Shown here piece after piece: positions 20,084 to 40,932 of a DNA stretch of 64,000 bases. Numbering within the stretch: the first letter of the stretch is position 1; each line of letters starts with the position of its first letter. Position numbers and translations under genes: made by a program. This stretch comes from Thermococcus sp. 21S7 (GTDB taxonomy: Archaea > Methanobacteriota_B > Thermococci > Thermococcales > Thermococcaceae): the NCBI RefSeq assembly GCF_012027615.1, contig NZ_SNUT01000002.1, positions 310,001 through 374,000 of the forward strand, in the 5' to 3' direction. The notes beneath the pieces are model-generated. The model was not told the DNA's origin. It did no database searches and saw nothing but the letters and a program-made list of their open reading frames with translations.

Positions 20084-20815
20084 TTAAGTTTGTTCCCCCT
20101 CCAGCAGTTCCTTCAGGAACTCGTTAACGTCCCCCACGTCCCGCCCCACCATGACGAAGTCGAACTTCCTCCCGTATCTCTTCCTGTAGTTCTCCACGAA
20201 GAGCTCGTCGTTGAGTGTATCTCCGACGTAAACTCCGGACTCTCCCTTCACGAGCTCCCACAGTGCCCTTGGGTCTGGCTTCAGGTAAAGCTCCCTGGTG
20301 ACTGCGTTTTCGAACTTGAACCCGATTATCCTCTCGGCGAGCTCCATCTCCAGGACACTCCGTCCCGTGATGACCCCCACCTTGAAGCGCTCCGACGCCC
20401 TTTTCAGGAGCTCCCTCCTCACGATGGGGCGCTCCTTCCTCCACAGCCCGGAAAAGTCGAATATCCTTTCGGGGTATTCCCTGCCGAGGTAGAAGGTGTT
20501 GAAAACCCTCTCGATACTCCCGCCGAAGACCTGAAAGCCGAACTTCTCGCGAACCCACTCTATGGTTCCCCCCTCCGGGAACTCCGCGATGAGCTCCTCC
20601 GCCCTTCCCGAGAGTGCGAAGAGTATCAGCGCCTCGCTGACCTTGAAGTCATCTCCAAAGGAGCCTTTCCTTCTGAGCTCCCTGACCCATTCCGGCTTTA
20701 TCTCCCTCTCCACTCCAAATGACCCTAGAAAGTACTCGGCGGTGAGCTTCGTGGCTTTATCGTAGCTCTCGCTCACGTCTATGAGGACACTGTCAACGTC
20801 GAAAACTATCCACAT
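20084..20815 (-). CDS. histidinol-phosphate phosphatase, HAD (DDDD) type
   Basis: Hydrolyses histidinol phosphate, the step missing from the standard his genes of Thermococcales. The 243-residue HAD protein has motif I FDVDSVLID (residues 4-12), motif II GVITGRS and motif IV GDTLND. A monofunctional HolPase of this superfamily was described for Thermococcus onnurineus, and the position as last gene of the his operon, overlapping hisC by 10 bases, fits. Note Ser replaces the usual Gly after the second motif-I Asp (DVDSV). Confidence 0.85.
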   Translation of the reverse strand: MWIVFDVDSVLIDVSESYDKATKLTAEYFLGSFGVEREIKPEWVRELRRKGSFGDDFKVSEALILFALSGRAEELIAEFPEGGTIEWVREKFGFQVFGGSIERVFNTFYLGREYPERIFDFSGLWRKERPIVRRELLKRASERFKVGVITGRSVLEMELAERIIGFKFENAVTRELYLKPDPRALWELVKGESGVYVGDTLNDELFVENYRKRYGRKFDFVMVGRDVGDVNEFLKELLEGEQT

Positions 20816-21825
20816 CCTTCCACCTCCAGGTATTCACTGAGGGCCTCCACCAGCTTCCGGTTCTCCCACTTCCTCCCCACGGTGACCCGTATGTGGCCGT
20901 CGAGCCTTCCCGAGAGCTTTCTGACCACTATGCCCTTCTCCAGGAGGAACTCGTAGGCGTTCAGCCTCATCAGGAGGAAGTTCGCGTCGCTCGGGTAGGT
21001 GAACTCCCGGAAGGCCTTCCTTATCTTCTCCCGCTCCTCGATTATCTTTGCCACGCGCCTCTCCACGAGGTCGTAGTGCCTGAGCACAACCTTCACGGCC
21101 GCCATGGTCATTATTCCAACGCTGAACGGCGACTTTACCCGGTAGAGCGCATCGACAACCTCCTCGTTCGCCAGGATGTAGCCCGTTCTGACCCCAGCCA
21201 GACTGAAGGCCTTGGAGAAGGTCCTCAGCACTATGAGGTTTGGGTACTCCTCGATGAGCCTCCAGAGGCTCTTCCCTGCGAACTCCGCGTAGGCCTCGTC
21301 GAGGACGACGGCCCTTCCAGTATCGAGAACCTTGACTATCTCCTCCTCCGGCTGGAGGTTTCCGGTGGGGTTGTTGGGTGAGGCTATGAAGGTTACCCTC
21401 GCGTTTCTGGCCTTCTCCGCTATTGCCCCGCCGTCTATCGTGAAGTCCTCCCTCAGGGGCACCTCAACGACCGGGATACCGTTCAGCTTCGCGTAGAAGT
21501 CGTACATGCCGAAGGTCGGCGGCGTCGTGACTATGTAGTCCCCCTCGAAGAGCCAGACGAGGTAGCCTATCAGCTCGTCCCCGCCGTTCCCGACGGCAAC
21601 GTTCTCCGGGGAGATTCCGTAAAACTCGGCTATTGCCTTCCTCATGGGCATGGAGGTTATGTGGGGATAGCGGTTGAAGCTCAGCTCCCTCAGCTCCTCG
21701 AATATCTTCTCCTTTACCCAGCCTGGTAAATCGTAGGGGTTTTCGTTCTTATCGAGCCTTATCGGGTAGTCCCCCTCCATGACGCGGTACGGTTCGAACG
21801 ACTTAACGAGTTCCCGGATCCTCAT
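20806..21825 (-). CDS. hisC: histidinol-phosphate aminotransferase
   Basis: PLP enzyme of fold type I converting imidazole-acetol phosphate to histidinol phosphate with glutamate. The PLP lysine is in [23 protein letters not shown] and SPNNPTG are also characteristic. Length 339. The start overlaps the hisIE stop by four bases (ATGA at 21822-21825). Confidence 0.95.
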
Positions 21826-22445
21826 CCCCGCCGCCTCCTCAGCTCGGCCATCACCTCGCCGAGGGAAACGTCGTTGTAGGCGAGAAGGACAAGCAGGTGG
21901 TAGAGCATGTCGGCGGTTTCGTAGATCAGACGCTCTCTGGTTTCCGCGACGAGAACCTCGACGGCTTCCTCGCCGAACTTCTTGTATATTCTCTCCCTGC
22001 CCTCCTGGAACAGCCTTGAGGTGTATGAGCCCTCAACGGGCTTCCCCTTCCTCTTCCTTATCAGCTCCTCAAGCTCCCGCAGGATGGTCAGCGAGTAGTC
22101 CATGGGCAGAACCCTCTCCGGCTCGCCCAGCTTCCTGTAGAAGCAGGAGTAGTTCCCCGTGTGGCATGCCGGGCCTTTCTGCTCGACGATTAGGAGAAGT
22201 GCATCGTCGTCGCAGTCAACCTTTATCTCCCTAACGCGCTGAACGTTCCCGCTCACCTCGCCCTTCATCCTGACTCTTCCCTGCGAGCGGGAGTAGTAGT
22301 GGGCGTAGCCGGTCTGGAGGGTTCTCCTTAACGCTTCCCTGTCCATGTACGCCAGGGTGAGAACCTCTCCCCCTGTGTCCTGAACGACGACCGGAACAAT
22401 CCCGCCGTTCTTCTCCCAGTTGACCTTTTCGATCAGTTCCTCCAT
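21822..22445 (-). CDS. hisIE: phosphoribosyl-AMP cyclohydrolase / phosphoribosyl-ATP pyrophosphatase
   Basis: Bifunctional enzyme for steps 2 and 3 of histidine synthesis. The N-terminal cyclohydrolase (about 1-110) shows metal-binding CDDDALL and [12 protein letters not shown]; the C-terminal pyrophosphatase (about 115-207) is the all-alpha MazG-like domain with [11 protein letters not shown] and [13 protein letters not shown]. Length 207 is normal for the fused form. Nine bases separate it from hisF. Confidence 0.95.
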
Positions 22446-22454
22446 GCTACCACC

Positions 22455-23213
22455 TCAGTAGTCCAGCCTCACGGGGATTCCCCTCTCGGCAAGGAATCCC
22501 TTCAGCTCGCCGACGGTGTATTCTCCGTAGTGGAAGATTGACGCAGCCAAAGCCGCCTCCGCCCCGGCTTTGAAGGCCTCGTAGAAGTGCTCGGGTTTTC
22601 CCGCTCCCCCCGAGGCTATCACGGGAATCTCAACTGCCTCTGCAACGGCCCTCGTAAGGGGTATGTCGAAGCCCTCCTTCGTCCCGTCCGTGTCCATGCT
22701 CGTGAGCAGTATCTCGCCGGCGCCGAGCTCCTCAACACGCCTAGCCCACTCAACTGCATCAATTCCCCTCGCCTTCCTCCCGCCGTGGGTGTAGACCTCC
22801 CAGAAGGAGCCGTTCCACTTGGCGTCTATAGCCACCACGAGGTTTGCACTGCCTATGAGCTCAGCTATCTCCCTCACGAGCTCGGGCCTTTCAACGGCGG
22901 CGGTGTTGATGAAGACCTTATCGGCACCGCGCTTGAGTATCTCCCTCGCCTCTTCAACCGTCCTTATGCCCCCTCCCACCGTGAAGGGGACGTATATCTC
23001 CCCGGCTATTCTCTCGACGAGTTCCAGCAGGATTCCCCTCTTCTCATAGGACGCCGTTATGTCGAGGAAGACTATCTCGTCTATCCCCTCGCTCTCGTAG
23101 CGCTTTGCCAGCTCGACCGGGTCACCCGCATCGCGAATATTCCTGAACTTTATTCCCTTGACGACCCTTCCGTCCTTTATGTCCAGCGCCGCGATTATCC
23201 TTTTCGCGAGCAT
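22455..23213 (-). CDS. hisF: imidazole glycerol phosphate synthase, cyclase subunit
   Basis: TIM barrel that closes the imidazole ring using ammonia from HisH. The catalytic aspartates lie in [13 protein letters not shown] (Asp11) and VAIDAKWNG; phosphate-binding ends VGGGIR and ASGGAG are visible. The 252-residue length is standard. Overlaps hisA by 19 bases. The first residues [11 protein letters not shown] carry Ala where most homologues have Cys. Confidence 0.96.
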
Positions 23214-23893
23214 TTCGCCACCTCCAGAAGCTCCTCAAGTGAGACGAGCCCTTCATACAGCGCTTTTCCGACTATGGTCCCTGAAAATCCTATTTCGGCG
23301 AGCCTTCTCAGGTCACCGGCGCTCGAAACTCCTCCGGCGTAGATGAACTCCTCGCTTTCCCAAAACATCTCTATCTCCTCTATCCCGGTCAGCGTCCCGT
23401 CCCTCTCGACCGAGGTGTAAACGAACCTGTTCACATAGCTCCTCAGCAGTTCGTAGGCCTCTTTGACTTCCATCCCGCTCTCAAGCCAGCCCCTGACGGC
23501 AACATTTCCGCCCATTGAGTCCAGGCTGACGGTTATCCCATCGAAGTCGTCGGTTATCCTCCTGAGGAACTCCAGGTCGAACGCCTTCGTGCCTATTATG
23601 ACGTTCTCCACCCCGGCTTCGTAGGCTTTGGCCACGGCCTCGTAGCTCCTGAGGCCACCTCCGAGCTGGACTCTCAGCCCGGTCTCCCGGATTATCCTTT
23701 CGACGACGTGGAGGTTCTTCGGGAAGCCCTCGAAGGCACCGTCGAGGTCAACGATGTGGATTTTGTCAACCAGCTCGGCGAAGCGCTCCGCTATCTCAAC
23801 GGGATCGCCGTAGACCTTAACGTCCTTTCTCCTCCCCTTGTAGAGCCTCACCGCCTTTCCTCCCATGAGGTCTATGGCCGGATAAACCTCCAT
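23195..23893 (-). CDS. hisA: ProFAR isomerase
   Basis: TIM-barrel isomerase opening the ribose of ProFAR to PRFAR. The catalytic Asp pair is in [13 protein letters not shown] (Asp8) and [16 protein letters not shown] and YAGGVSS bind phosphate. At 232 residues it is slightly short but complete. One base separates it from hisH. Confidence 0.94.
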
Positions 23894-23894
23894 C

Positions 23895-24491
23895 TCAGAG
23901 CCCCCTGAAGTTTCTCATCACTGCCAGCCCGTTCCTCCCGCTCTTCTCCGGGTGGAACTGGACGGCGTAGACGTTATCCCTGCAGACCGCTGATGTGAAG
24001 ACTACCTCCTTCCCCTTCGACCCGTAGTCGGTAACGCCCGCGATTATCTCCTCCTCGCTCGGCCGGGCATAGTAAGAGTGGACGAAGTAGAAGTACGCCC
24101 CATTCCTGATTCCCTCGAAGAGCGGGCAGTCCTTCTTCTTCCACAGCTGGTTCCAGCCGATGTGCGGGGTCCTAACTCCCAGGAACCTGACCACATCTCC
24201 CCTGAAAACCCCGAGGCCGGGCTTTCCAGGGCTCTCCTCGCTCCCTTCGAAGAGGAGCTGGAGGCCGAGGCATATCCCGAGGAAGGGCTTCCCCTCGTTT
24301 ATCGCGTCGAGTATGACCCCCCTCAGCGGTTTGAGCCTCTCCATGACCGCCCCGAAGTTGCCGACGCCGGGGAGGACGAGCTTTTCTGCTTTTTCAATCT
24401 CGTAGGGGTCGCTCGTGATGACTCCCCCTAAAGCCTTCCTCACGTTGGCGAGGTTTCCTATACCTAAATCCACTATCGCTATCACCCTCAC
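23895..24491 (-). CDS. hisH: imidazole glycerol phosphate synthase, glutaminase subunit
   Basis: Class I glutamine amidotransferase that feeds ammonia to HisF. The nucleophile Cys is in GICLGLQLLF, the His-Glu pair in AVQFHPEKSG; VLPGVGNFG forms the oxyanion strand. 198 residues. The start overlaps the hisB stop by four bases. Confidence 0.96.
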   Translation of the reverse strand: MRVIAIVDLGIGNLANVRKALGGVITSDPYEIEKAEKLVLPGVGNFGAVMERLKPLRGVILDAINEGKPFLGICLGLQLLFEGSEESPGKPGLGVFRGDVVRFLGVRTPHIGWNQLWKKKDCPLFEGIRNGAYFYFVHSYYARPSEEEIIAGVTDYGSKGKEVVFTSAVCRDNVYAVQFHPEKSGRNGLAVMRNFRGL

Positions 24492-25024
24492 ACCTCCAGC
24501 AGGCCCTTCGTGCTCTCCAGCTTCTCACTCTCCCCGATGGCCTTGCCGAAGGCCACACCGAGCCCCTTGAAGACCGCCTCGATAACGTGGTGCGCGTTAA
24601 CCCCGCTCAGCGTTTTCACGTGGATCGTTGCCCTCAGCGAACGCGCCAGCCCCCAGAGGAACTCCCTAACCAGAGCCTTCTCGAAGCCCTCCTCTTCCTC
24701 TTGGAACTCCAGTTCGACGCTCACGTAGGGCCTTCCCGATATGTCCACCGCGACCAGGACTAAAGCGTCGTCCATCGGCATTATTGCGCTTCCGAAGCGG
24801 GCGAACCTCTCCGGGAGCTTTGAGCGCAGCTCCTCACCGAGGGTTATCCCGACGTCCTCCCACAGGTGGTGTCTGAGGTCGTAGCTGGCCCTAACCTTCG
24901 CCTCCCGGCCCATGTAGAAAAAGAGGACCGTGAGGAGGTGGTCGAGCACCTTATCGCCCGTCCTTATCCCTCCGGCCGCATCGAGCTCCACGGTTACGTC
25001 GGTTTCCCTCGTTTTCCTGTTCAT
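24488..25024 (-). CDS. hisB: imidazoleglycerol-phosphate dehydratase
   Basis: Manganese-dependent dehydratase giving imidazole-acetol phosphate. Both metal motifs are present: [10 protein letters not shown] in the first half and [11 protein letters not shown] in the second. The 178 residues are a monofunctional enzyme, without the phosphatase domain found fused in enterobacteria, consistent with a separate HolPase at the end of the operon. The start overlaps the hisD stop by four bases. Confidence 0.95.
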
Positions 25025-26154
25025 TTCCTCACCTCCATGCTCCTCCTGTGGAAGGCCATCCCCTCTATCTCCGCCAGCCTCAGTCCAAGCTCCCTCTCGG
25101 CGAGGAACTCCTCCCTGCTCACCTGGGCGATGCTTATCGGCTTGAGGAAGTCCCTAACCGTCAGGACACCGCTGAACTTCGCCGCTCCTCCGGTCGGCAG
25201 GACGTGGTTGACGCCGAGGAAGTAGTCCGCTGCCGGAACGGGCGTGTATGGGCCGAGATAGATTGCACCGGCGTTCTCGATCAGGTCAACGAGCTCCATG
25301 GGCCGGGCGGTGATTATCTCAAGGTGCTCCGGTGCTATCTCGTTGGCCTTCTCGGCGCACTCCTCAAGGCTCTCGCAGAGTACGACCTCTATCCCCTCGC
25401 GCGAGCAGTATTCGGCAAGTTCTTTTGAAGTGGTCAGGAGCCACGCCCTGCTGTCCTTCCCGTGCTCAAGCTGACTGAGGAGGTCGGCCAGGACGTAGTC
25501 TTTCTCCGCCGTCCCGTCCGCTATCACCGCTATCTCCGACGGCCCGGCGAGGCTGTCTATTCCAACAGCTCCAAAGACCTGCCTCTTGGCCTCGTTGACG
25601 AACCTGTTTCCGGGCCCGAATATCTTGTCCACCTTCTTCATGCCGATGCCGTAGGCCATCGCCCCTATGGCCTGAACGCCGCCCAGCTTGTAGACCTCAT
25701 CGATACCGAGAAGCCTGGCCACGTAGAGCACGTAGGGGTTCACCTTACCGTCTTTCGGCGGAATTGCCACCGCTATCTCCCTGACGCCCGCTATCTTTGC
25801 CGGCACCCCCACCATCATCAGCGTCGATGGCAGCGGCTTCCCGCCGGGGACGTAGATTCCTATCCTCCTTATCGGACGGTATATCAGGCCGTATAGGGAG
25901 CCGTTCTTGAGGAACAGTCTCTCCCTCTCCATCTGCCTCTCGTGGTACTCCCACAGACGCTCTATTGTGCGGAGGATTATCTCACGGTCTTTTTCTGGTA
26001 TGCTTTCCACGGCCTCCTCGAATTCCTCTTCGGTTACGCGGAAAGGCCCTTCATAGCCGTCGAACTTCTTCGAGTACTCCCTGACGGCTTCGATACCCCT
26101 CTCGCGGATGTCCTTCAGCATTCCGGCGACGTAGCTCTCAAGGTCAAAATCCAT
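25021..26154 (-). CDS. hisD: histidinol dehydrogenase
   Basis: Zinc enzyme catalysing the last two oxidations to histidine with NAD. Blocks [42 protein letters not shown] and [11 protein letters not shown] are diagnostic. At 377 residues it is some 50 shorter than bacterial enzymes; the shortening is at the two ends and is usual in this lineage. Its start lies within the end of hisG (11-base overlap). Confidence 0.95.
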
Positions 26155-26785
26155 TCCTAATCACCTCCTTTATTGCGAAGACAAGCTCGTTTATCTCCTC
26201 AAACTTTGTTTTCTGGGCTATCCTGTTCACGAAGAGCAGGGCGGAAACGTCCATTATCTTCTCCACCTCTGCGAGCCCGTTGGCGCGGAGCGTGTTTCCG
26301 GTCTCGACGATGTCCACTATCGCGTCGGCTATTCCTATCTTCGGCGCCAGCTCAATGCTCCCGTGGAGCTTCAGGACCTCCACCTCCACGTTAAGGCCCT
26401 CAAAGAAGCGCCTCGTTATCCTGGGGTACTTGGTGGCTATCCTGTAACCGTCCATCTCCTCGGGCTCAACGACCCTTTCCGCCGGCATGGCCAGGCTCAG
26501 CCGACACTTTCCGAATGGGAGCTCAAGGGGTATGAGGACGTCGCTTCCGCGCTCCTCCACGACATCGCTCCCGGAGATGCCGACATCGATTCCGTACTCA
26601 ACGTAAACCGGAACGTCAAAAGCTCTCGCAAGGAGAACCTCGTAGTTGCCGACCCTCTCGATGAGCCTCCTCTCAGCCGGAACCCTCAGCTCGATCCCGG
26701 CCTTTCTGAGGACTTCCAGAGAACCCTGAAGGAGCCTTCCCTTGGGGAGGACGAACCTTATTGGGGAGCCGTTGGAACGCTTCAT
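26144..26785 (-). CDS. hisG: ATP phosphoribosyltransferase, short catalytic subunit
   Basis: First enzyme of histidine synthesis. It has FVLPKGRL at the start (residues 12-19), SGSDVVEE, and SALLFVNR at the end. At 213 residues it is the short form, which lacks the regulatory ACT-like domain and needs HisZ; hisZ is indeed the adjacent upstream gene (TGA and ATG directly adjoin). Confidence 0.95.
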
Positions 26786-27676
26786 TCACTCCACCTCCAC
26801 CGGAATGCCCATCCTCACGAGCCTCTTGGCTTCTGCAAAGACTTCCTTGGGTTCTCCGCTCAGCTTTTTCCGGTTCCTGTCCCCCTTTTTCTTAAAGAGC
26901 TTCGAGAGCGCCCCCATATCGAAGGCAAAGCCAAACGCCGGTTTCCCTTTGAACGTATACTCCCCGCCCCCGCCGAGCGGCTTTCCCAGTTCGGGCGAGT
27001 AGACCTCGAAGAGTATGTCGCGGTAGTAGGGGAGCGGCCTGACCGTGCCGAAGTCGATGAAGAGCCTCTCGTCGTTAACTGCCTCAACTATTCTGTCGAG
27101 CTTCCCGTAGCCGCTCTCCTTTCCCCAAAAGTTGAAAAGCTTCCACAGCTCCTCCTTTTTCTCTTTGCCTATCTGGAGACGCTCTATTATCTCGAAATTC
27201 CTTCTCACAAGTGCCCTGTAGATTTCCCCCCGGAACTCCTTCACGTCCTCGGTGGCCCTCTCCCAGACCTTCAGGCTTCCGATGTCTATGTAGAACTCCT
27301 CTATTCCCACGGCTTCGAGGGCAGTTATGACCGCGAGAAGAACCTCGGCGGCCATCTTCGTGACGTCCCCGCCTATGTACTCCACCCCGGCCTGCCACTG
27401 CCCCCTTATGCCGCCGTCAAGCACTTCGCTGATGTAGTAGACCTTGAGCTTCTCGGGAGGTTCCTTGGTGTTCTCAAGTATCTGCGACGTTATGTCGGGT
27501 TTTATAACGTAGAATTCGTTGTTGTACGCGAATTTTGTTCCTTTCCTCAGATTCTCGCTGTACTCCTCGATGGCGGGGAGGAAAATCTCGCGGTAGCCCC
27601 ACAGCTCGAATGTTCTTCTCAGGTACTTTCCAATCTCCGACAGCTTCTCTGACTCGGCCAGTAAGCCATTTCTCAC
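26786..27676 (-). CDS. hisZ: ATP phosphoribosyltransferase regulatory subunit
   Basis: HisRS-like protein without synthetase activity that assembles with short HisG and confers feedback control by histidine. The 296 residues keep class II synthetase features (FLPAIEEYSE, motif-2-like KVYYISEVLDG, motif-3-like GGGGEYTF) but lack the anticodon-binding domain. GTG start at 27676 behind GGAGGGG. It is the first gene of the operon, preceded by an untranslated leader of about 190 bases. Confidence 0.92.
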   Translation of the reverse strand: MRNGLLAESEKLSEIGKYLRRTFELWGYREIFLPAIEEYSENLRKGTKFAYNNEFYVIKPDITSQILENTKEPPEKLKVYYISEVLDGGIRGQWQAGVEYIGGDVTKMAAEVLLAVITALEAVGIEEFYIDIGSLKVWERATEDVKEFRGEIYRALVRRNFEIIERLQIGKEKKEELWKLFNFWGKESGYGKLDRIVEAVNDERLFIDFGTVRPLPYYRDILFEVYSPELGKPLGGGGEYTFKGKPAFGFAFDMGALSKLFKKKGDRNRKKLSGEPKEVFAEAKRLVRMGIPVEVE

Positions 27677-27897
27677 ACTAACCCCTCCTGTTTTATTGAC
27701 GGAATCAAGGGTGACAGAACTATTCGAGTCTAACGAAGTCCCAGAAGAGTCAATGATGGCGGTAGCTCACCAGAAGAGCCGGTACGCTAAGGTACCTCTC
27801 GTTTGGCTCCTTGAAACACGTTCCAACCGTCGCCGTTTTCCGGAACATCTTCTTTCCCTCCGTTGGTGCCCACCATAGGCTGAGGGTGTTTAAAATA
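27677..27897 (-). promoter_or_regulatory. his operon promoter and long leader
   Basis: On the minus strand ATTTTAAA (about 27889-27896) is the best TATA element upstream of hisZ and predicts a start near 27868, leaving about 190 leader bases, whereas most leaders in this window are 10-35. The leader contains a small reading frame with its own ribosome binding site (see 27750-27848), a GGTAC-N6-GTACC hairpin, and the nonamer CCAGAAGAG twice (27741-27749, 27770-27778). Upstream of the TATA box lies the inverted repeat ATTCAGC-N9-GCTGAAT (27918-27940). Apart from these and the promoter of the plus-strand gene at 28055, the 378 bases between 27677 and 28054 hold no convincing gene. Confidence 0.5.
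27750..27848 (-). CDS. possible 32-codon leader peptide of the his operon
   Basis: ATG at 27848 lies eight bases behind a perfect GGAGG (27857-27861). The frame runs MFRKTATVGT...LLVSYRHH and stops at 27750-27752, so its last two sense codons are CAT CAT (His-His). It starts about 20 bases after the predicted transcription start, so it would be the first translated frame of the his mRNA. Composition is unremarkable apart from the ending. Leader-peptide attenuation is not established in archaea, so the peptide may be chance; the ribosome binding site makes it worth listing. Confidence 0.3.
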   Translation of the reverse strand: MFRKTATVGTCFKEPNERYLSVPALLVSYRHH

Positions 27898-28054
27898 TTA
27901 TCCCCCAACTTGTTGTCATTCAGCCGACTTTTTGCTGAATATATGTCATTATGTCCGCAACGCGATGAGGTGCTCATTTTCACTTGAAATGTTTGACTTG
28001 ATATACCCAAAAGATTAATAGCCTTTCCCGGCTATAATGTAGCGGTGATTCTTG

Positions 28055-28579
28055 ATGGAGATAACAGATAAGGAAGTTTTTGAGATTGCCATAAACGCGG
28101 AGATACGGGCCAAGGAGGCCTACGAGAAGCTGGCTTCGCTCGTCAAGAGCGACATCATACGTGATGAACTCATCTTTCTGGCTGGAGAGGAGAACAAACA
28201 CCGGGAAATAATAGCCATGATGGCCGAGAAGTTTGAAGGCGACAGGGCTGAGGCAAAGAAGATTGATATCGACATCATGGGCGAGTTCAATGTTATCGCC
28301 GAGAAGATGGGCGAGGTCATCAAGAAGCCGGACGTAAACATCGACGAGATATATGAGATAGCCATGAAGGCCGAACTCGTCAGTGAAAGGCTCTACAATG
28401 AACTCGCCGGCTACGCCGCCACCGAGAAGACGCGGCTCATACTCCAGATGCTCGCCGACATGGAGCGCAACCACTACAACATCCTCCGCAAGCAGTACGA
28501 GTACATAACCCGCTATCCTGACATATACAAGGAAGAGTTCTACGACCAGCTGATGAAGGACATCAACTTCAACTTCTGA
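28055..28579 (+). CDS. ferritin-like/rubrerythrin-domain protein
   Basis: Single four-helix ferritin-like domain (COG1633 type, 174 residues) without a rubredoxin tail. Di-iron ligands appear as two E...ExxH sets: NAEIRAKEAYE with GEENKHRE in the first half, and KAELVSERLYNE with DMERNHYN in the second. Expected to bind iron and handle peroxide or store iron; the exact reaction is unknown. ATG at 28055 follows GGTGAT by five bases; TATA-like AAAAGATTAATAG near 28010-28020. It is divergent from the his operon. Two similar proteins are encoded at 32697 and 35990. Confidence 0.85.
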   Translation: MEITDKEVFEIAINAEIRAKEAYEKLASLVKSDIIRDELIFLAGEENKHREIIAMMAEKFEGDRAEAKKIDIDIMGEFNVIAEKMGEVIKKPDVNIDEIYEIAMKAELVSERLYNELAGYAATEKTRLILQMLADMERNHYNILRKQYEYITRYPDIYKEEFYDQLMKDINFNF

Positions 28580-28602
28580 CACGTTTTTACTTTTTCACGT
28601 GT
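28579..28602 (+). terminator. possible terminator after the ferritin-like gene
   Basis: Directly after the TGA, ACACG (28579-28583) and CGTGT (28598-28602) flank two runs of five Ts (28584-28588, 28591-28595). T-runs are what archaeal RNA polymerase uses to stop; the short inverted repeat may be incidental. Confidence 0.4.
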
Positions 28603-28733
28603 TTGGACTTTCCCAGACTTAAGTGTCCTTTCCTGCTTTCTTTTCATTGTTTAATGCTAACTTTGGAACGCCGAAAGGTTAATAAATAACGTTAATGTAA
28701 CATTGAGTGCAAAACCCTGTTTGAGGGGGGGCG

Positions 28734-29147
28734 ATGCCAAGAAAGGTGTCGGTCCTATTCCTGATGGGAGTTTTGTTCTTTGCAGGAGTAGCCGTGGCAC
28801 TGGACGGCAACGAGCCGGAAGCAATAACCCGGGATCCCCTTGTCCACGACGAGAACACCTACGCACCCACCGATGATGGAAGCCTCTACTGCTGGATAAG
28901 CGGGTACGCGAGCCAGAGCCAGCCCGGTTACCTCTACAACATCTACGGAGACGCTGGTTCGACTGGAGTTTGTGAGCTATGGAGTACGAAGTTCCGCCCG
29001 TCCACCGCAACCCCGCCGGCCGGATACGCTTGGGACTCTGCCCAGATAGCCGCCACCGGCTGGTGCCCCTTCTGGCCCAAGACCATCTACGCCGAGATAA
29101 CTTGGGTTTCGGGAACTACCTACACAAGTACAACTGAAGAAAGTTGA
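28734..29147 (+). CDS. small secreted protein rich in Trp, Tyr, Ser and Thr
   Basis: Not recognised. 137 residues with a signal peptide (about 1-22, ending AVA-LDG). The mature part of some 115 residues is rich in aromatic residues and has three cysteines (53, 80, 111), each next to or near Trp (CW, CELW, WCPFW). A TATA-like AATAAATAAC near 28681-28689 and GAGGGGGGG precede the ATG. It lies 25 bases before the ABC-exporter cassette and is probably co-transcribed with it. It could be a secreted factor or the substrate of that exporter; neither is shown. Confidence 0.7.
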   Translation: MPRKVSVLFLMGVLFFAGVAVALDGNEPEAITRDPLVHDENTYAPTDDGSLYCWISGYASQSQPGYLYNIYGDAGSTGVCELWSTKFRPSTATPPAGYAWDSAQIAATGWCPFWPKTIYAEITWVSGTTYTSTTEES

Positions 29148-29172
29148 GTGAATCGTAATCGGAGGGAATCAC

Positions 29173-30225
29173 ATGAAGAGGATTTCCAGGTTTTTTGTTC
29201 TCTTCTTTTTCGTTCTTTTGATCCTAAGCCCGCTCGTCTCGGCAACGCCCTACTGGTTCAAGGAGGGGATATACGCCAAGTATGTCGCCAGAGGTTGGCT
29301 CTCAATCGACCTGAACACCTCCATGGGGAACGTCTCCTATTACTGCCCCCGAGTGGAGTTCACGTGGCGTGTCCTCAGGGTTTCCGGCGATAAAGCCCAG
29401 GTGTCTCTTTTGCTCAGGGGGGTCAACTGCACCCGGGAGGCGTATTCCACCCTCAGCCTGGATGAAGCGAGAACCCTTCTCCTGAAATACCAGAAGCGCT
29501 ACAACTTCACGGGCGGGGGCTGCCTTGATGTCTCCATCACAGGGGGCGACGTTACCGTGTGCGAGAACAGCTACTCTGAACGGACGGCACAGCGGGCCGT
29601 TAACCTGATGATCATGGAGGGAGAAGGCAGGCTGGCCAACAAGTCCTACGTGTCGGAGAACTTCAGCAGGGCCGGAGTCGTTGAGATTGACCTGACCACG
29701 GGGGAAATCCACGTGAACGGCACCCCCGCTGGAGGGAACTTCCTCTGGGTCGAAAATCCCGCCAACATCACGGGACTTGAAATCCTACCAGGGCTGGAGG
29801 TTGAGACGGTCAAGATGATAAACTCGACCGCGATGACATACTACGGCGACTTCAACGCCCCGGTTTACATGGCCCACACGAACATGATGAGCCTCGACAA
29901 TCGGACTATGGGAAAGGACGTTATCCTCTACGACGGCTCGAGCGGTCTGGCGATAGCCTTCTTCACGCCTTTCAGCCCGCTGTGGAAGGCCCTCGGTGTG
30001 AGTAGTACTATGATTCAGGACACGGAGTTCGCGAGGGAGCACGAGAGGGAGATCAAGGAGAACAACAAGATGCCTCCCTTTGGACTGGTCTTGGCCGAGA
30101 CCAACATAGACTTTACCAAGCCAGCGGAGCTTCCGGAGGAGGGACCGTCGAGGACGGCGGTCGTTGTCGTAGTTGGTATCGTCGTGGCTCTTGGTGCGCT
30201 ATTCATCTGGAGGTGGAGGAAGTGA
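29173..30225 (+). CDS. secreted, C-terminally anchored protein of the exporter cassette
   Basis: Not recognised. 350 residues: signal peptide (about 1-25), an extracellular domain with five cysteines (near 57, 86, 116, 126 and others) and several N-glycosylation sequons (NTS, NVS, NFT, NFS), then one membrane helix (about 326-345) ending WRWRK. ATG at 29173 follows GGAGG. Its stop overlaps the GTG of the permease gene (GTGA at 30222-30225), so it is coupled to the transporter and may be an extracytoplasmic partner of it. Confidence 0.75.
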   Translation: MKRISRFFVLFFFVLLILSPLVSATPYWFKEGIYAKYVARGWLSIDLNTSMGNVSYYCPRVEFTWRVLRVSGDKAQVSLLLRGVNCTREAYSTLSLDEARTLLLKYQKRYNFTGGGCLDVSITGGDVTVCENSYSERTAQRAVNLMIMEGEGRLANKSYVSENFSRAGVVEIDLTTGEIHVNGTPAGGNFLWVENPANITGLEILPGLEVETVKMINSTAMTYYGDFNAPVYMAHTNMMSLDNRTMGKDVILYDGSSGLAIAFFTPFSPLWKALGVSSTMIQDTEFAREHEREIKENNKMPPFGLVLAETNIDFTKPAELPEEGPSRTAVVVVVGIVVALGALFIWRWRK

Positions 30226-30965
30226 AGGAAGTCCTCCGCGGGGAGCTCCGCTCCCCCTTAAACCTGACCCTGGCTTCAGCAGGGGCCGTTCTCGTTGGGA
30301 CGGTGATGAAGAGGTACTACCTGACCTGGAGCGCCGGTTCCAGTGGTGGACCTCATGGGGTTGAGATGCTTGGTTCGGTTTTCAGGGACGCCTTCACCGG
30401 CGACGTTTACCTGCTCCTCGCGATACTGGTTCCCTTCATAATAACCCTGGCCGTGAGGCTGGAAAGGGACGAGGGCGTTGCCCTCTCGGTGTACTCCCTT
30501 CCGGTTTCGAGGGTTAAAATACTCCTCGCCAAGTTCTTGGCGGCTTTCCTCACGCTCTTCATCTTCGTCTTCTCGGTGCACCTGCTGCTCTTCTACCTCC
30601 ACTTCGCAGACACCCCCAAAGCCGTCATCGAGGTGCTGAAGGTCCAGACCGTACCAATGGCGTTCTTCTACCTCTCGGCCCTTCTCTTCATGGTCTCAGT
30701 CGCGGCAGTGGTTGCGATAACCTCGCCCAACACCTATGTCTCCATCTTCGGGGGCTTCATAGCTCTCTACCTCCCCGAATTTTTGGGGACGACCTGGTAC
30801 GGGCCGGTGCCGTGGAGGAGTTTCCTGACAAGGCACTATTTCGCCACCATTTCGATTCGAATGGATCCGCTGTTCTCGTGGGCCTTCGTGAAGATAACCC
30901 TCCTTCCGGCGCTGGTGTTACTTGCCCTATACCTGCTCATCGGCAACTGGAGGGACGTGAGATGA
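30222..30965 (+). CDS. ABC-2-type transporter permease
   Basis: Membrane subunit with six hydrophobic segments in 247 residues and the cytoplasmic loop typical of ABC-2/NosY-like permeases (YSLPVSRVKILLAKFLAAF, in which a substrate-independent SRxxxLxxK pattern is seen). GTG start at 30222 follows GGAGGT by seven bases; a GTG nine bases upstream is the alternative. It pairs with the ATPase gene at 31396; one small membrane protein gene lies between, all with four-base overlaps. Confidence 0.85.
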   Translation: MKEVLRGELRSPLNLTLASAGAVLVGTVMKRYYLTWSAGSSGGPHGVEMLGSVFRDAFTGDVYLLLAILVPFIITLAVRLERDEGVALSVYSLPVSRVKILLAKFLAAFLTLFIFVFSVHLLLFYLHFADTPKAVIEVLKVQTVPMAFFYLSALLFMVSVAAVVAITSPNTYVSIFGGFIALYLPEFLGTTWYGPVPWRSFLTRHYFATISIRMDPLFSWAFVKITLLPALVLLALYLLIGNWRDVR

Positions 30966-31399
30966 GGCTCTTCCGGGCGCTCCTCCTTGTCCTCATGCTG
31001 GTCTCGCTTGTAAGCCTCGGTCTGCAGTCCAACCTCAAGCCGAGCGACGTTCACTACAAAACGGCCTTCGTGTCCGGGATGGACGCAACAGCCGTTTACA
31101 TCTCCTCCATGGCGTCGGTGAAGCTCTACGCCGTCGGCACCGGGGAGTTCTGGATAGAAGACCTGCAGACGGGGGAGACTATATTCACCGGCGAAGTGGA
31201 GGGCAACGGGGCCTTCGCGCTCGTCTTTCCCCACCCCGGATACTACGAGTTCGGCGGGAACTCCACTCAGGGCATCACGATAACGATAACGCCCGTTGAT
31301 GTTGGCTTCCCAGGGAAGCAGAAATCCACCCACCTGTGGGCATCGGCGTTGTTCGGCGGGCTTCTGGCGCTGACGCTCCTAGGGGGTGGCAGGAAATGA
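30962..31399 (+). CDS. small membrane protein of the exporter cassette
   Basis: Not recognised. 145 residues with an N-terminal membrane or signal segment (about 5-23) and a C-terminal membrane helix (about 125-141, WASALFGGLLALTLLGG), the part between being extracytoplasmic by the positive-inside rule and beta-rich. ATG at 30962 overlaps the permease stop (ATGA) and its own stop overlaps the ATPase start (ATGA). The tight coupling says it belongs to the ABC complex, perhaps as an accessory subunit. Confidence 0.75.
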   Translation: MRLFRALLLVLMLVSLVSLGLQSNLKPSDVHYKTAFVSGMDATAVYISSMASVKLYAVGTGEFWIEDLQTGETIFTGEVEGNGAFALVFPHPGYYEFGGNSTQGITITITPVDVGFPGKQKSTHLWASALFGGLLALTLLGGGRK

Positions 31400-32091
31400 G
31401 CGCGGTAATCGAGGCAAGGGATTTGCACAAGTACTTTGGGCCGATAAAGGCCCTTAATGGTGTTACCGTTGAGATACCTGAGGGCCTGACGCTCATCCTC
31501 GGACCCAACGGTGGTGGGAAGAGCACGTTCATGAAGGTCTCGCTGGGCCTCTACAAGCCGACTAAGGGAACCGTGAAGCTTCTCGGAGAGGACCCCTGGA
31601 AGCACCCAGAAACGAGAAAATCCGTTGGCGTGGCCTTCGACCCAGGAAGGTTCCCAAAGCTGACGACGGGGCGGGAGTGGCTGGAGTTCATTGCGCGAAC
31701 GCGGGGCGCTAATTTGAACGATGTTGAAAAGGCCGCCAAGCTCTTCGGCATCGAAGACGCCCTCGACAGGAGGATAGACGGCTACTCCTCGGGAATGCTG
31801 AAGAGGCTGAGCCTCGCGCAGGCTTTCGTGGGAGAGCCTGGCGTGGTGTTTCTTGACGAACCGCTGGCCAACCTTGACTTCGAGAGCGTTTCCGAAATCG
31901 TGGGCGTCATCGGGAAGTGGAAAGGCAAAGGTAAGAGCTTCGTTCTCATAAGCCACATATGGGAGCCCTTTGAAGGGCTGGCCGACTACGGAGTGGTCAT
32001 CAGCGGCGGAAAGGTCTACCTGAAGGGCCAGTTCTCGGAGATACGTGAAAGGATTGAGGGCATGTTCCGGCCGCCCGCGGTAGGGGAATGA
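31396..32091 (+). CDS. ABC transporter ATP-binding protein
   Basis: Nucleotide-binding subunit for the permease at 30222. Walker A GPNGGGKST near residue 36, signature YSSGMLKRLSLAQ, Walker B VVFLDEPLANLD and H-loop LISHIWEPF are all present in 231 residues. The second signature residue is Ser-Ser-Gly in place of the commoner LSGG, as in many ABC-2 exporters. ATG at 31396 overlaps the previous stop by four bases. Last gene of the cassette that begins at 28734 or 29173. Confidence 0.92.
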   Translation: MSAVIEARDLHKYFGPIKALNGVTVEIPEGLTLILGPNGGGKSTFMKVSLGLYKPTKGTVKLLGEDPWKHPETRKSVGVAFDPGRFPKLTTGREWLEFIARTRGANLNDVEKAAKLFGIEDALDRRIDGYSSGMLKRLSLAQAFVGEPGVVFLDEPLANLDFESVSEIVGVIGKWKGKGKSFVLISHIWEPFEGLADYGVVISGGKVYLKGQFSEIRERIEGMFRPPAVGE

Positions 32092-32114
32092 GACGTCGGC
32101 TTTTGATTTTTGAA

Positions 32115-32642
32115 TTATTCCCTTTTGAGCACGACGAACTCCCGGTAATCCATCATCTTGACGAAGCCTTTTCTCAGGTAGTACGAATAGGCCTCAAGCT
32201 CCGGGAAGGTTATCACGTAGGGTACTTTTCCGAGCTCCCTGAGGCGCTGAATGGCAAACTCTAGGAGCTCCGAGCCGTAGCCCCTGCCCCTGTACGAGGG
32301 GTCGACCATGAAGAACTCTATGAGTCCGGTTTTCTCTCCCTTTATCTCCTCCGGCACCCACCAGACGTCCTTGCCTTCGAGGTTGTAGACGAGGGCGACC
32401 GTTCCGGCTATCCTTCCCCCATCGTCCCTCAGAACGTAGAGCTCGTCGAACTCCTTTCCAAGACGGAACTCAAGGAACGGTTCGTAAACCCTTCTGAAGC
32501 CCTCAACGTCGTCCGTTGATGGCTTGTTCTCCACCCACTCCAGGGCAGGGTATGCGCCTCCGGTTCCCTGATAGACCCTGAAGACGAAGTGAACCAGTTC
32601 ATCCTTGAGTCTCAGCGGCTCATCCACCCTCTCAATCCGCAT
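32115..32642 (-). CDS. GNAT-family N-acetyltransferase
   Basis: Acetyl-CoA-dependent acetyltransferase of unknown substrate. The 175 residues show the GNAT core: strand 4 EFFMVDPSYRGRGYGSELLE with the CoA loop RGRGYG, and the late Tyr of AYSYYLRKGF. Convergent with the exporter cassette and divergent from the ferritin-like gene at 32697. Confidence 0.88.
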   Translation of the reverse strand: MRIERVDEPLRLKDELVHFVFRVYQGTGGAYPALEWVENKPSTDDVEGFRRVYEPFLEFRLGKEFDELYVLRDDGGRIAGTVALVYNLEGKDVWWVPEEIKGEKTGLIEFFMVDPSYRGRGYGSELLEFAIQRLRELGKVPYVITFPELEAYSYYLRKGFVKMMDYREFVVLKRE

Positions 32643-32696
32643 AACTGTCCACCAAAGGTTATTAGGGCCCGAAACCTAAAACGTTTTGGTGATAGC

Positions 32697-33176
32697 ATGA
32701 ATGAACTTGAAGCTCTGGCCCTGGCCCTTGAAGTTGAGAAGGCCGAGTTGAAGTTCTACATAAGGCTGGCAAAAAAGGCCGGCGACGAGAGGGCCAGGAA
32801 GATGTTTCTGTTCCTGGCAAACGAAGAGGCGGGCCACTGGGAGCTGTTCGAGGAGAAGTTCGTCGAGAAACTCATAGAGGAATGCGAACTTCCCGCCGTT
32901 GACAGGGCCGTCCTTGAGAGCCTTCAGGTGGAGGCCGACGAGAGCAAGCTGAGTGAAGTGGATGCAGTGAGGATAGGCATGGAGCAGGAAAAGAAGACCT
33001 GGGAGTTTTACGAGAGGGCCGCCAGGGAGGCGGAACACGAGGACGTCCGGCGCGTGTTTGAGGAGCTGGCGAAGGTGGAGAAGAGCCACTACGAGCTGCT
33101 CAAGGCCCAGTACGACTCGGTGATGAAGACCGGCATCTGGATGGACTATCAGGATTTCAGCCTTGAGGTGGACTGA
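32697..33176 (+). CDS. ferritin-like/rubrerythrin-domain protein
   Basis: 159-residue single ferritin-like domain. Ligand sets are EVEKAELKFY with NEEAGHWE in the first half and GMEQEKKTWEFYE with KVEKSHYE in the second, the E...ExxH pattern twice. ATG at 32697 is four bases behind GGTGAT. Upstream an inverted repeat TTAGG-N8-CCTAA (32662-32679) lies near the promoter. Likely iron binding or peroxide removal; sequence resembles the proteins at 28055 and 35990. Its last 20 bases overlap the convergent frameshifted gene. Confidence 0.85.
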   Translation: MNELEALALALEVEKAELKFYIRLAKKAGDERARKMFLFLANEEAGHWELFEEKFVEKLIEECELPAVDRAVLESLQVEADESKLSEVDAVRIGMEQEKKTWEFYERAAREAEHEDVRRVFEELAKVEKSHYELLKAQYDSVMKTGIWMDYQDFSLEVD

Positions 33177-33857
33177 ATTCCTGCTCCCCACTGCCGGGGC
33201 GTGAACCTCGGGGTCCTATGATATCCGGCAGAACTTCGGGGGCTTCCAGTAATTGGACGTCGTGCCTTTTACGAAGCTCCCCGCGCAGCCAGTACGAATG
33301 CTCCACTCCAACCAGGACCAGCATTTTGCCGTCCTTCCTCCCCTCATTTGCCTTGAGAATCTGTTCCAGGAAATGCCGGTTCCATTCTTCCCATGCCCTG
33401 CCCTCTTTATTCCCGAACAGTGAGTTCTGGTACTTGTGCTTAATCTCAAAATGCCGATCTGTCTCGTAGGAATTGACATCAAGGACTGAACTCCACCACT
33501 GGAAAAGCACCTCATACAAAGTCTCCACGTAGAGCTTAAAATGCTCCAGAGCGTCCGGATTGTTTTCCTGTACGTTTTCCGTTGACTCCCTCGCCATCTG
33601 TATCAGTTCGGAATACTTCGGCTCGGGCGGTTCGAGTGAGATGACTCGCATTTTAGTTTATCAATCAGGGGATAGACGCTTTTCTGGTACTCCTGCTTTA
33701 TCTTCTGCGGCACCCTGCCCTCAACGTCTGAAGACCTCAGTTCAACGGCGAGGATATCGGGGGAGAAGCTCCAAATTATATGCGCCAGGTCTTCATAGGT
33801 GTAGTAATCCACGTGGCCGTGGAACTGGTGCAATGTGGAGAGAACCAGAACCTTCAT
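33157..33857 (-). pseudogene. frameshifted gene, possible TraB/ChaN-like protein
   Basis: Two overlapping frames make one continuous protein. The first (33857-33603) begins MKVLVLSTLHQFHG...DILAVELRSSD...YPLIDKLK and should continue, after a -1 shift in the AAAA run at 33651-33654, into the second (MRVISLEPPEPKYSEL..., stop at 33157). Adding one A there gives about 233 residues. The start pattern (short strand, TLHQ, then PDILAVEL) and the later LVLVGVEHSYWL weakly recall the TraB/ChaN hydrolase fold. It may be a dead gene, a sequencing error, or a programmed -1 shift. TATA-like CTTTTATAG lies near 33890-33897. Confidence 0.65.
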
Positions 33858-33968
33858 AATATCACGTCCTTTATAGTGTTAGAGAAACGGTACTATAAAA
33901 GACTTTGCCAGAGAATTATTTCTACGCCTCCAGACAAGGAAAAAGGGGATTAATGCGGCTATTGCACT

Positions 33969-34346
33969 TCATTCCACCAGAACGTTGACGAGCTTAACAT
34001 CCCGGCCGATCTTCTTCCTTATCCTTTCGATTATCTCGGGGTCGTTGAAGTCGATGACCTTGCCCCCGCTTATCAGGTTGATGTGCGGCTCCGTGTTGAG
34101 CTCCACCCTCGTTTCTCCGTCCAGGGAGAAGAGTTCGAGCAGGCCAAGCTCTTTCAGCGTCAGGACGTTGGAGTAGAGCGTGGAAAAGCTCATGGTTGGG
34201 AACTCTGCTTTGATCTCACGCAGAACGTCCGTGAGTGATGGATGTTCGTTCCCGATTCTATCGAGTATCTCCATCAGTTTAAGCCTCTGCGGTGTGAGCT
34301 TGTATCCGCTCTCTTTGAGCCGTTTGAGGGCCTTTTCTTTCCACAT
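33969..34346 (-). CDS. Fur/PerR-like transcriptional regulator lacking the zinc cysteines
   Basis: 125-residue Fur-family protein: winged helix (about 1-80) with GYKLTPQRLKLMEIL and SFSTLYSNVLTLKELGLL, then a short dimerisation domain. The place where canonical Fur has HHHLIC(xx)CGK reads EPHINLISGGK, so the structural zinc CxxC is absent, and the C-terminal tail is short. It is divergent from dpsL; the shared 103-base region holds a perfect inverted repeat (34385-34401). Most likely represses dpsL and itself in response to iron or peroxide; this is inference. Confidence 0.88.
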   Translation of the reverse strand: MWKEKALKRLKESGYKLTPQRLKLMEILDRIGNEHPSLTDVLREIKAEFPTMSFSTLYSNVLTLKELGLLELFSLDGETRVELNTEPHINLISGGKVIDFNDPEIIERIRKKIGRDVKLVNVLVE

Positions 34347-34384
34347 GATTTAAGCTACACTTCCCGGCTTATAAGTCTTTCTAA

Positions 34385-34401
34385 TTAGAACTAACTTCTA
34401 A
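34385..34401. promoter_or_regulatory. inverted repeat between the fur-like gene and dpsL
   Basis: TTAGAA-CTAAC-TTCTAA is a perfect 6-5-6 inverted repeat midway between two divergent TATA elements: CTTATAAG (about 34362-34370, minus, for the regulator) and TTTATTAGG (about 34410-34419, plus, for dpsL). Overlapping partial palindromes TCTAATTAGA (34380-34389) and TTCTA-AA-TAGAA (34396-34407) extend it. AT-rich 15-20-base palindromes are typical of Fur/PerR boxes, making this the likely operator. Confidence 0.6.
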
Positions 34402-34449
34402 ATAGAAAAGTTTATTAGGTAGAAATGCTAACAGTTTTTGGTGAAAACT

Positions 34450-35001
34450 ATGTCTGAACACAACCGAAGGCTTGTTGAGAAAGCCGGAATAGATGTGGAA
34501 AAACTCCTGGACATGTTGCTGAGGGCCGCAGCCGCGGAGTTTACGACCTATTACTACTACACGGTTCTGAGGAACCATGCGGCAGGTATGGAGGGCGAAA
34601 CGATAAAGGAGATAGTCGAAGACGCCCGCCTTGAGGACAGGAACCACTTCGAGGCCCTCGTTCCGAGGATTTACGAGCTCGGCGGTGAGCTCCCGAGGGA
34701 CATCGGTGACTTCTCCAAGATGGCCTGGTGCCGCGACGCTTACCTTCCCGGGGAGCCGACCGTTGAGAACATCCTCAAGGTTCTCTTAGAGGCGGAGCGC
34801 TGTGCAGTCGGTGTTTACACCGAGATATGCAAGTACACCTTTGGAAAAGACCCGAGAACCTACGACCTGGCTCTGGCGATACTCCACGAGGAGATCGAGC
34901 ACGAGGCCTGGTTTGAGGAGCTCCTTACCGGCAAGCCGAGCGGCCACTTCAGGAGAACCAAGCCCGGAGAGAGCCCGTTCGTCTCAAAGTTCCTGAGGTG
35001 A
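34450..35001 (+). CDS. dpsL: Dps-like ferritin (DpsL, thioferritin)
   Basis: Forms a 12-subunit cage that oxidises and stores iron with hydrogen peroxide, as shown for the P. furiosus and Sulfolobus homologues. The 183 residues have the bacterioferritin-like intrasubunit site: E30, E62 and H66 (EDRNH), E114, and E148 with H151 (EEIEH). Cys118 and Cys127, plus Cys94, are in positions compatible with the thioferritin cysteine pair. ATG 34450 follows GGTGA by five bases. In P. furiosus this gene is next to the ferritin-encapsulin gene; here it is followed by a shell-less ferritin domain at 35044. Confidence 0.92.
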
Positions 35002-35043
35002 AAAGATTATTAACCTCCGGACGTATTATGGGGTGGTGATACC

Positions 35044-35346
35044 ATGCTCGCTGAAAAGCCCTACCTCCTCGGGAGGGAGAAGCCCCTCTCAAAGAGGGAA
35101 ATAGCCCAAGCCCTTCGCTGGGCCATCGAGGCCGAGCTCGACGCCATAAGCTTCTACGAGCAGCTGGCCGAGCTGATAGAGGATGAGAGGATAAAGCACA
35201 TATTCTACGACGTCGCCAACGAGGAAAAGGAGCACGTTGGGGAGTTTCTGGCGGCGCTCCTTGAGGTCGATGAGGAGCTCGTGAAGTACATGAAGGAAGG
35301 CTTTGAAGAGGTTGAGGAAGAGACCGGCATAAAGGTCGAACTGTGA
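35044..35346 (+). CDS. stand-alone encapsulated-ferritin-like (EncFtn) domain
   Basis: The 100 residues align with the first ~99 of the P. furiosus encapsulin (PfV), which are the internal cargo ferritin: compare GREKPLSKREI, AELDAISFYEQ, DVANEEKEHVGEF and GFEEVEEETGI here. Iron ligands of the family are E31 and the E61xxH64 motif. EncFtn subunits have half a ferritin bundle and make the di-iron site between two subunits. Here the protein stops after this domain and no shell sequence follows, so it is either a natural free EncFtn or serves a shell encoded elsewhere. ATG follows GGTGGTGAT; 42 bases after dpsL. Confidence 0.88.
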   Translation: MLAEKPYLLGREKPLSKREIAQALRWAIEAELDAISFYEQLAELIEDERIKHIFYDVANEEKEHVGEFLAALLEVDEELVKYMKEGFEEVEEETGIKVEL

Positions 35347-35472
35347 CCTTTTCGTTCCTCTTTTCCCTCGCTTCCTTTCGATTCTCGTGCACTAAGCAGT
35401 ATGTTAATGCACCTTTTTGCTCAATGAAAAACGTTATTAAGGTTCGATGTTCATATAGTTCTGGTGATGTGC

Positions 35473-35916
35473 ATGGTTGAACCACTTGTTAAGAGGGCCT
35501 ATGAGACCGAAAAGAAGGCCGCCGCGAGCTACACCGATGGTCTCGGCCTCATAAGGGGACAGGGACTGAGGTACACCAAGGTTGAGGAAGTCGTCGGCAG
35601 GATAGCCGTGGACACGATAATACACAAGCACCTGATGAAGGCCATTCTGGAAGCCCAGAAGGAGCTGGAGAAGCTCGCGGGAGAGGGGCCAATAGAGGAG
35701 GTCAAGGAGGTTGAACTTGTACCCGAGCAGAAAGCCCTGGTCAAGCGCTTTGCCGAGATGCACCTGGACATCGAGAAGGACATGATAGAGACCTACCAGA
35801 AGATGGCGGAGAAGATGACCCACCCCCTGTTTAAGAGCCTCGCCGAGGCCCTTGTCGAGAACGAGAAGGAGCACCACAGGATTCTGGCGGAGCTGATAGC
35901 AAAGTACAGGGAATGA
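35473..35916 (+). CDS. ferritin-like protein
   Basis: 147-residue helical protein with ferritin-like spacing: EKKAAASY near the start, DTIIHKHLMKA, EMHLDIEKDMIETY, and ENEKEHHRI near the end (ExxH). The first helix lacks a clear ExxH partner in the usual place, since it reads DTIIHKH, so the metal site may be altered. ATG 35473 is four bases behind GGTGAT; codons upstream (MMC) are unlikely to be used. Separate promoter likely (AACGTTATTAAGG near 35430). Function within iron metabolism is inferred from family and neighbours. Confidence 0.75.
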   Translation: MVEPLVKRAYETEKKAAASYTDGLGLIRGQGLRYTKVEEVVGRIAVDTIIHKHLMKAILEAQKELEKLAGEGPIEEVKEVELVPEQKALVKRFAEMHLDIEKDMIETYQKMAEKMTHPLFKSLAEALVENEKEHHRILAELIAKYRE

Positions 35917-35989
35917 GCCGGTGCCCCGGCGGTGTCGTGCTCCTTCTTATCCTCTTTGTGTTGGTCCGTTCAAAATAATAAAAACCAGA

Positions 35990-40864: not shown

Positions 40865-40932
40865 CTGCATCACCTTTTTCATGTTCCACATTGAAGTATT
40901 TAAACCTGTATGGGTGAAAAAAGAAAAGCCCA

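Follow-up and report, generated by a model that had tools for sequence, protein, structure and literature searches.

In the window, i.e. the whole stretch of 64,000 nucleotides of Thermococcus sp. 21S7 DNA that was analysed, the his operon lies on the minus strand and consists of nine genes, of which hisZ is the first. The features of the operon and of the region ahead of it are as follows:

About 27889 to 27898, minus strand: TATA-like box ATATTTTAAA, the putative his operon promoter (from the sequence; A/T boxes are similarly placed in relatives)
27856 to 27861, minus strand: Shine-Dalgarno (SD) sequence GGAGGG of the leader frame (from the sequence; an SD precedes the ATG in most relatives' leaders)
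27750 to 27848, minus strand: leader peptide gene MFRKTATVGTCFKEPNERYLSVPALLVSYRHH, 32 codons, ATG at 27848 and TGA at 27752-27750 (from sequence and conservation)
27765 to 27771, minus strand: internal SD-like element GGTGAGC, 8 nt ahead of the first His codon (from pairing with the 16S tail)
27753 to 27758, minus strand: putative sensor codons CAT CAT (from the CAT bias of leader His codons)
27742 to 27749, minus strand: element CTCTTCTG with a TTCT core, directly 3' of the leader stop (from the comparison of 46 loci)
27742 to 27755, minus strand: 5' arm of a stem, CATTGACTCTTCTG (predicted pairing)
27676 to 27690, minus strand: 3' arm of the same stem, CAGGAGGGGTTAGTG, which includes the hisZ SD (27688-27682) and the start of its GTG (predicted pairing)
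27682 to 27688, minus strand: hisZ's own SD, GGAGGGG (from the sequence)
26786 to 27676, minus strand: hisZ, ATP phosphoribosyltransferase regulatory subunit (TIGR00443, E 3e-34, a clear match yet below the curated cut-off; hisG is directly next)
20806 to 26785, minus strand: hisG, hisD, hisB, hisH, hisA, hisF, hisIE and hisC, the remaining his operon (profile matches)

Since hisZ through hisC follow downstream, the leader marks the start of a complete his operon. The TATA-like box predicts a transcription start at about 27868, and as such the leader frame should be transcribed. The first-pass annotation had described a 32-codon frame with a perfect GGAGG and terminal CAT CAT codons, whose stop lies 73 nt before the GTG of hisZ (27676), and on the minus strand both its coordinates and its description are correct. 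The observation is in fact stronger than it was stated there; the choice of a rare codon, the SD-like element and the TTCT element had been missed.

Directly after hisC, a HAD-type hydrolase is encoded at 20084-20815 (TIGR01548, below cut-off), which may supply the histidinol-phosphate phosphatase otherwise absent from the his operon. Next to the operon is a cluster of small proteins resembling ferritin or rubrerythrin, no fewer than seven in all (28052-36514 and 40325-40945), and a Fur-like regulator is found within this cluster at 33969-34346, both read by eye from the translations. In several loci (e.g. L003, L004 and L032), TGACA/TGTCA repeats are located directly upstream of the his promoter and in places form a palindrome such as TGTCATAATGACA; in the window itself, no palindrome was found near the his promoter with a stringent pattern. 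These elements suggest that a DNA-binding repressor acts on the operon besides the leader.

For the comparison across the family, 94 Thermococcaceae genomes were searched with HisZ, and the upstream regions of all 46 genomes in which hisZ was found, representing six genera, were read. An ATG frame of 12-40 codons that ends in two to four His codons is present in 46/46 of them, although the genomes are related, such that the counts are not independent events and the key tests were carried out with clade representatives. Frames were counted over 49 loci, as three public records duplicate genomes already included. In a 47th genome (G091), the leader is followed by the beginning of hisZ at the contig end. 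The loss of the frame in relatives, which the first-pass annotation had named as evidence that would speak against its proposal, was hence seen in none of the hisZ-bearing genomes, and the terminal His codons are likewise kept in every one. Since HisZ identity within the set is as low as 57%, this conservation must be long-term. Typical leaders end in LLVSYRHH, AFLVSYCHHH, AVSYYHHHH or LRVSLHH, with the extended forms HHLF, HHRLF and HHPF, and the bodies that precede these ends are unrelated between lineages; the leader of genome G012, for example, reads MVERSIKSRVLSMGASLLFKVTYCHHLF and precedes the hisZ located at G012:C1:203622. The gap between leader and hisZ amounts to 24-80 nt, and hisZ itself starts with a weak GTG or TTG in 43/49 loci. 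In Thermococcus kodakarensis, the his cluster comprises TK0242-TK0251 (PMC9986279).

That the frame is a coding one is indicated by the position of its start codons. Counted by frame with respect to the His codons, SD-preceded ATGs show a ratio of 47:2:0 (49 in total), and while the distances between the SD-ATG and the His codons are many and varied, all those in frame 0 are multiples of three. The His frame is open in 49/49 loci, whereas 49 loci have a closed +1 frame and 39 a closed +2 frame, but this openness is partly built in because the frame was picked by its His codons, and the bias of the SD-ATGs is the cleaner test. Within clades of equal length, no codon-position bias of substitutions was found in the leader body. 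Selection on the protein body was consequently rejected, leaving the body free and the frame and its end as what is kept; for a leader that is read only for its codons, a divergent body is what would be expected. A short open reading frame with a ribosome binding site directly upstream of a biosynthetic operon, and conserved codons, placed where regulation would act, for the amino acid that the operon makes, are two of the features by which a ribosome-mediated amino-acid leader peptide (an attenuator in the broad sense) is recognised, and both are found here. From sequence comparison, a His-codon leader peptide in front of the his operon is therefore well supported. A leader that is read into hisZ by frameshifting or read-through was rejected, as the frame relation varies (gap modulo 3 of 0, 1 or 2); the window's leader is, by coincidence, open into hisZ in the +1 frame.

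Within the 94 genomes, the leader is exclusive to his operons. When a sequence-only motif model was run over them, it matched 42/46 his leaders and that of G091 at E < 0.001, and no other site scored better than E 0.019, none being convincing beyond the his leader. The four that were missed (G007, G021, G053 and G069) are among the most divergent. No leader precedes trpC in related Thermococcus genomes, where the gene starts directly behind its promoter, and at the trpC promoters of L068, L069 and L071 CTGTCCAAATA-like elements are found by the TATA box; trp thus seems to be controlled differently from his. A simple scan of the 2.09 Mb of G012 for residue-rich short open reading frames before genes gave no convincing leader for other amino acids, although such a scan of a single genome is noisy. 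Outside the family, no His-His leader was found at hisZ relatives in DHVE2, Thermoplasmata, Thermotogae and Caldiserica, and no plasmid match for the leader was found either.

The His codons themselves are unusual. Leader His codons are CAT in 112/116 cases, whereas in ordinary genes CAC prevails, with 49 CAC vs 5 CAT in sixteen genes of the window and 8059 vs 2349 in G012. With a CAT share of 9-23% in ordinary genes, the leader almost always uses the disfavoured codon. Ahead of these codons, pairing with the 16S tail, which we take to be GAUCACCUCCU, peaks sharply between 13 and 9 nt ahead of the first His codon and reaches ≤-4 kcal/mol in 83% of the 46 loci, against a background of 13% in hisZ coding sequence. 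The internal SD-like element is present in 20/23 clade representatives and is built from differing sequences, namely GGTGA or GAGG depending on the clade. The serine at -3 is coded by AGC or AGT and never by TCN, and shifts to ACT or ATT occur with GGTGA kept. As its spacing of 8 nt to the first CAT corresponds to that between an SD and a start codon, the element should slow a ribosome at the point where its decoding site holds the His codons. Behind the His codons, a TTCT lies at exactly +3, +6 or +9 nt from the last of them in 46/46 loci, even where the stop codon is elsewhere. Both elements would lie beneath or within reach of a ribosome stalled at the His codons. In many clades, a direct repeat CTTCTG (or TTTCTG) flanks the His codons, in the window within 27742-27781, with one copy just before the internal SD and the other just after the stop, and either could pair with an SD.

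As regards RNA structure, the leader of the species in the window is predicted to form a stem that would hide the SD and start of hisZ, with the His codons and TTCT together making up one of its arms. Within this clade, 14.6 pairs with the hisZ SD and start are expected vs 5.7 for shuffled motifs, and 0/40 shuffles score as high; across clade representatives, the stem is no better than shuffles (p=0.65). Most members of the window's clade, along with L013-L015 and L017, show strong pairing between the motif and the hisZ SD, but it is absent in several genera, so this stem cannot be the output step everywhere, and sequestration of the hisZ SD is ruled out as a universal mechanism, the stem not being general beyond certain clades. 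The whole leader of the window folds no more stably than shuffles, and the predicted opening energies at 80 °C barely differ with vs without a ribosome and are mixed across loci, although folding parameters are poor guides at 85 °C. For competing folds, covariation is slightly above that of shuffles but is equalled when the structures are slid by 3 columns. On the same ground, a conserved local hairpin GGTGAGC-TACY-GCCATCA was rejected: a change from C-G to U-A at one pair is suggestive, and structures slid by 3 score equally. The inverted repeat GGTAC-N6-GTACC that had been pointed out inside the frame does exist (27781-27796) but takes the weaker form GGTGC-GTACC in near relatives, is disrupted in L012 and is missing elsewhere, and as such is ruled out as a regulatory structure. 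On the coding strand of the window, no intrinsic terminator was found between leader and hisZ, and a run of five T occurs between leader stop and hisZ in 12/46 loci only, with no T run conserved. Attenuation by an intrinsic terminator was rejected on these grounds. The attenuation proposed in the first-pass annotation consequently survives in part: its leader peptide with His codons stands and is conserved, whereas attenuation with a terminator of the bacterial type is not supported, there being neither a terminator nor a conserved U tract.

From our point of view, the region is probably a leader (attenuator) through which the ribosome makes the his operon responsive to histidine. What sequence and comparison show is the frame, its His codons and their bias towards CAT, the SD-like and TTCT elements on either side, the exclusive association with hisZ and the stem predicted in the window's clade. 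That the leader is translated, that ribosomes stall on it, what they mask and in which direction hisZ is regulated are inferred, and one can imagine these steps as follows. A ribosome would initiate at the leader ATG and reach the terminal, rare CAU codons, on which the SD-like sequence at start-codon spacing would slow it. If charged His-tRNA is scarce, the ribosome would stall on CAU and cover the downstream UUCU; if His-tRNA is plentiful, it would finish and leave at UGA, and the freed UUCU element would repress hisZ. In the species of the window, freed CAUUGACUCUUCUG could pair with the SD and start codon of hisZ and thereby block translation, and since most of the 5' arm CATTGACTCTTCTG would lie beneath a ribosome that has stalled at CAT CAT, stalling would open hisZ. 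Either the other clades use another output, or the stem is a local refinement built on a masking of TTCT that applies more generally. As a tentative generalisation, for which we see a fair deal less than an even chance, one could speculate that the sensor needs no terminator and, in most lineages, no sequestering stem either, in that the internal SD holds the ribosome on CAU and the stalled ribosome masks a UUCU that shuts the operon off.

The main rival concerns the output step. With the same sensor, the output could be termination that depends on FttA (aCPSF1): a stalled ribosome would shield the RNA and stay coupled to RNA polymerase, and after its release, 24-80 untranslated nt with UUCU would let FttA terminate before hisZ. 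TTCT keeps a fixed place with respect to the His codons however far away hisZ is, which would suit this, and as no RNA stem is needed, it fits all clades. For T. kodakarensis, steric exclusion of FttA by the coupled ribosome and competition for RNA polymerase have been proposed as a hypothesis (PMC11616081), and the KH domains of aCPSF1 bind U-rich RNA (PMC8716108). However, no U tract is conserved in the leaders, where the five-T run is confined to the minority given above, and UUCU is a putative FttA site at most, so that we regard termination as possible but rather unlikely. It is also conceivable that the conserved peptide end V-S/T-Y-x-H-H arrests the ribosome and senses free histidine instead of His-tRNA, as V at -4 in 37/46 and Y at -2 in 34/46 loci might indicate. 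The residues before the His codons nevertheless vary (C, R, Y, L or F at -1; S, H, P or R at -2), the changes preserve the SD-like nucleotides (AGC, AGT, ACT, ATT) and not the amino acid, and a peptide effect leaves the choice of a rare codon unexplained, which makes nascent-peptide arrest improbable.

Two further explanations dispense with histidine sensing or with the peptide altogether. A constitutive short upstream gene might simply feed ribosomes to hisZ by reinitiation, for which the short gap and the weak GTG/TTG starts of hisZ would be suitable; such a role is proposed for bacterial leader genes (PMC4833913). The terminal His-His in every genome, the rare CAT, the lack of a leader before trpC and the exclusive link to his are all left unexplained by it, and we consider it quite improbable. 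Lastly, the region could encode no leader peptide at all but represent a DNA operator, a structured RNA or an antisense C/D-box RNA with a chance CATCAT, given that the motif is largely conserved at the nucleotide level and that the opposite strand reads ATGATGA, which resembles a C box. Against this stand the evidence for the frame and a His run whose length varies in codon steps, and on the other strand no conserved D box was seen by eye. The covariation of the GGTGAGC/GCCATCA hairpin is weak and no better than that of the structure slid by 3. No Rfam family matched at the gathering threshold or at E up to 1, amino-acid leader families included, on which ground a C/D-box or other known RNA was rejected. 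As a whole, this last explanation appears highly improbable.

Leader peptides that are read by the ribosome and thereby control amino-acid operons are a textbook mechanism of bacteria, and to our knowledge, ribosome-mediated control of this kind has so far been established only there. In the open-access literature, to which the search was confined, we found no archaeal amino-acid operon described as having a leader peptide. A His leader throughout an archaeal family would show that archaea, whose RNA polymerase, termination factor and ribosome are their own, likewise gauge amino-acid supply via the translating ribosome. The mechanism could be tested in the genetically tractable T. kodakarensis.

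Among known systems, the enteric hisL attenuator shares with the Thermococcaceae leader a short leader with terminal or near-terminal His codons before the his operon and, if our reading is correct, stalling as the sensor. The leader described here differs from it in having two to four His codons, in lacking a terminator hairpin with U run and any Rfam match, and in being served by an archaeal ribosome and polymerase. The His count is two in half of the species, which is few beside bacterial his leaders such as that of Escherichia coli with its seven His codons. Translational attenuators of the ermC type resemble the predicted situation in the window's clade, where a stalled ribosome would open a stem and thereby expose the SD of the following gene; their signal, however, is an antibiotic in place of the His-tRNA proposed here, and the stem of the his leader is not family-wide. 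A third likeness is to E. coli tnaC, behind which a Rho site lies, in that a stalled ribosome may mask an element just downstream of the stop. Here, the factor would be FttA with UUCU as its putative site, and an arrest peptide is a feature of tnaC. In the same organisms, the fluoride/crcB and preQ1 riboswitch-type leaders of Thermococcales are likewise cis-regulatory 5' leaders (PMC4247193), but they are ligand-binding RNAs whereas the his leader is coding. In the same transcriptome paper on T. kodakarensis from 2014, archaeal attenuators and riboswitches were described as being without direct experimental in vivo support (PMC4247193). Overall, since the terminator of hisL and trpL is missing and the feature shared with ermC occurs in some clades only, we class the his leader of the Thermococcaceae as a variant form of leader-peptide control, and should the masking sensor prove true, archaea would have a solution of their own that differs from the transcription attenuators of bacteria as well as from the translational attenuators of the ermC type.
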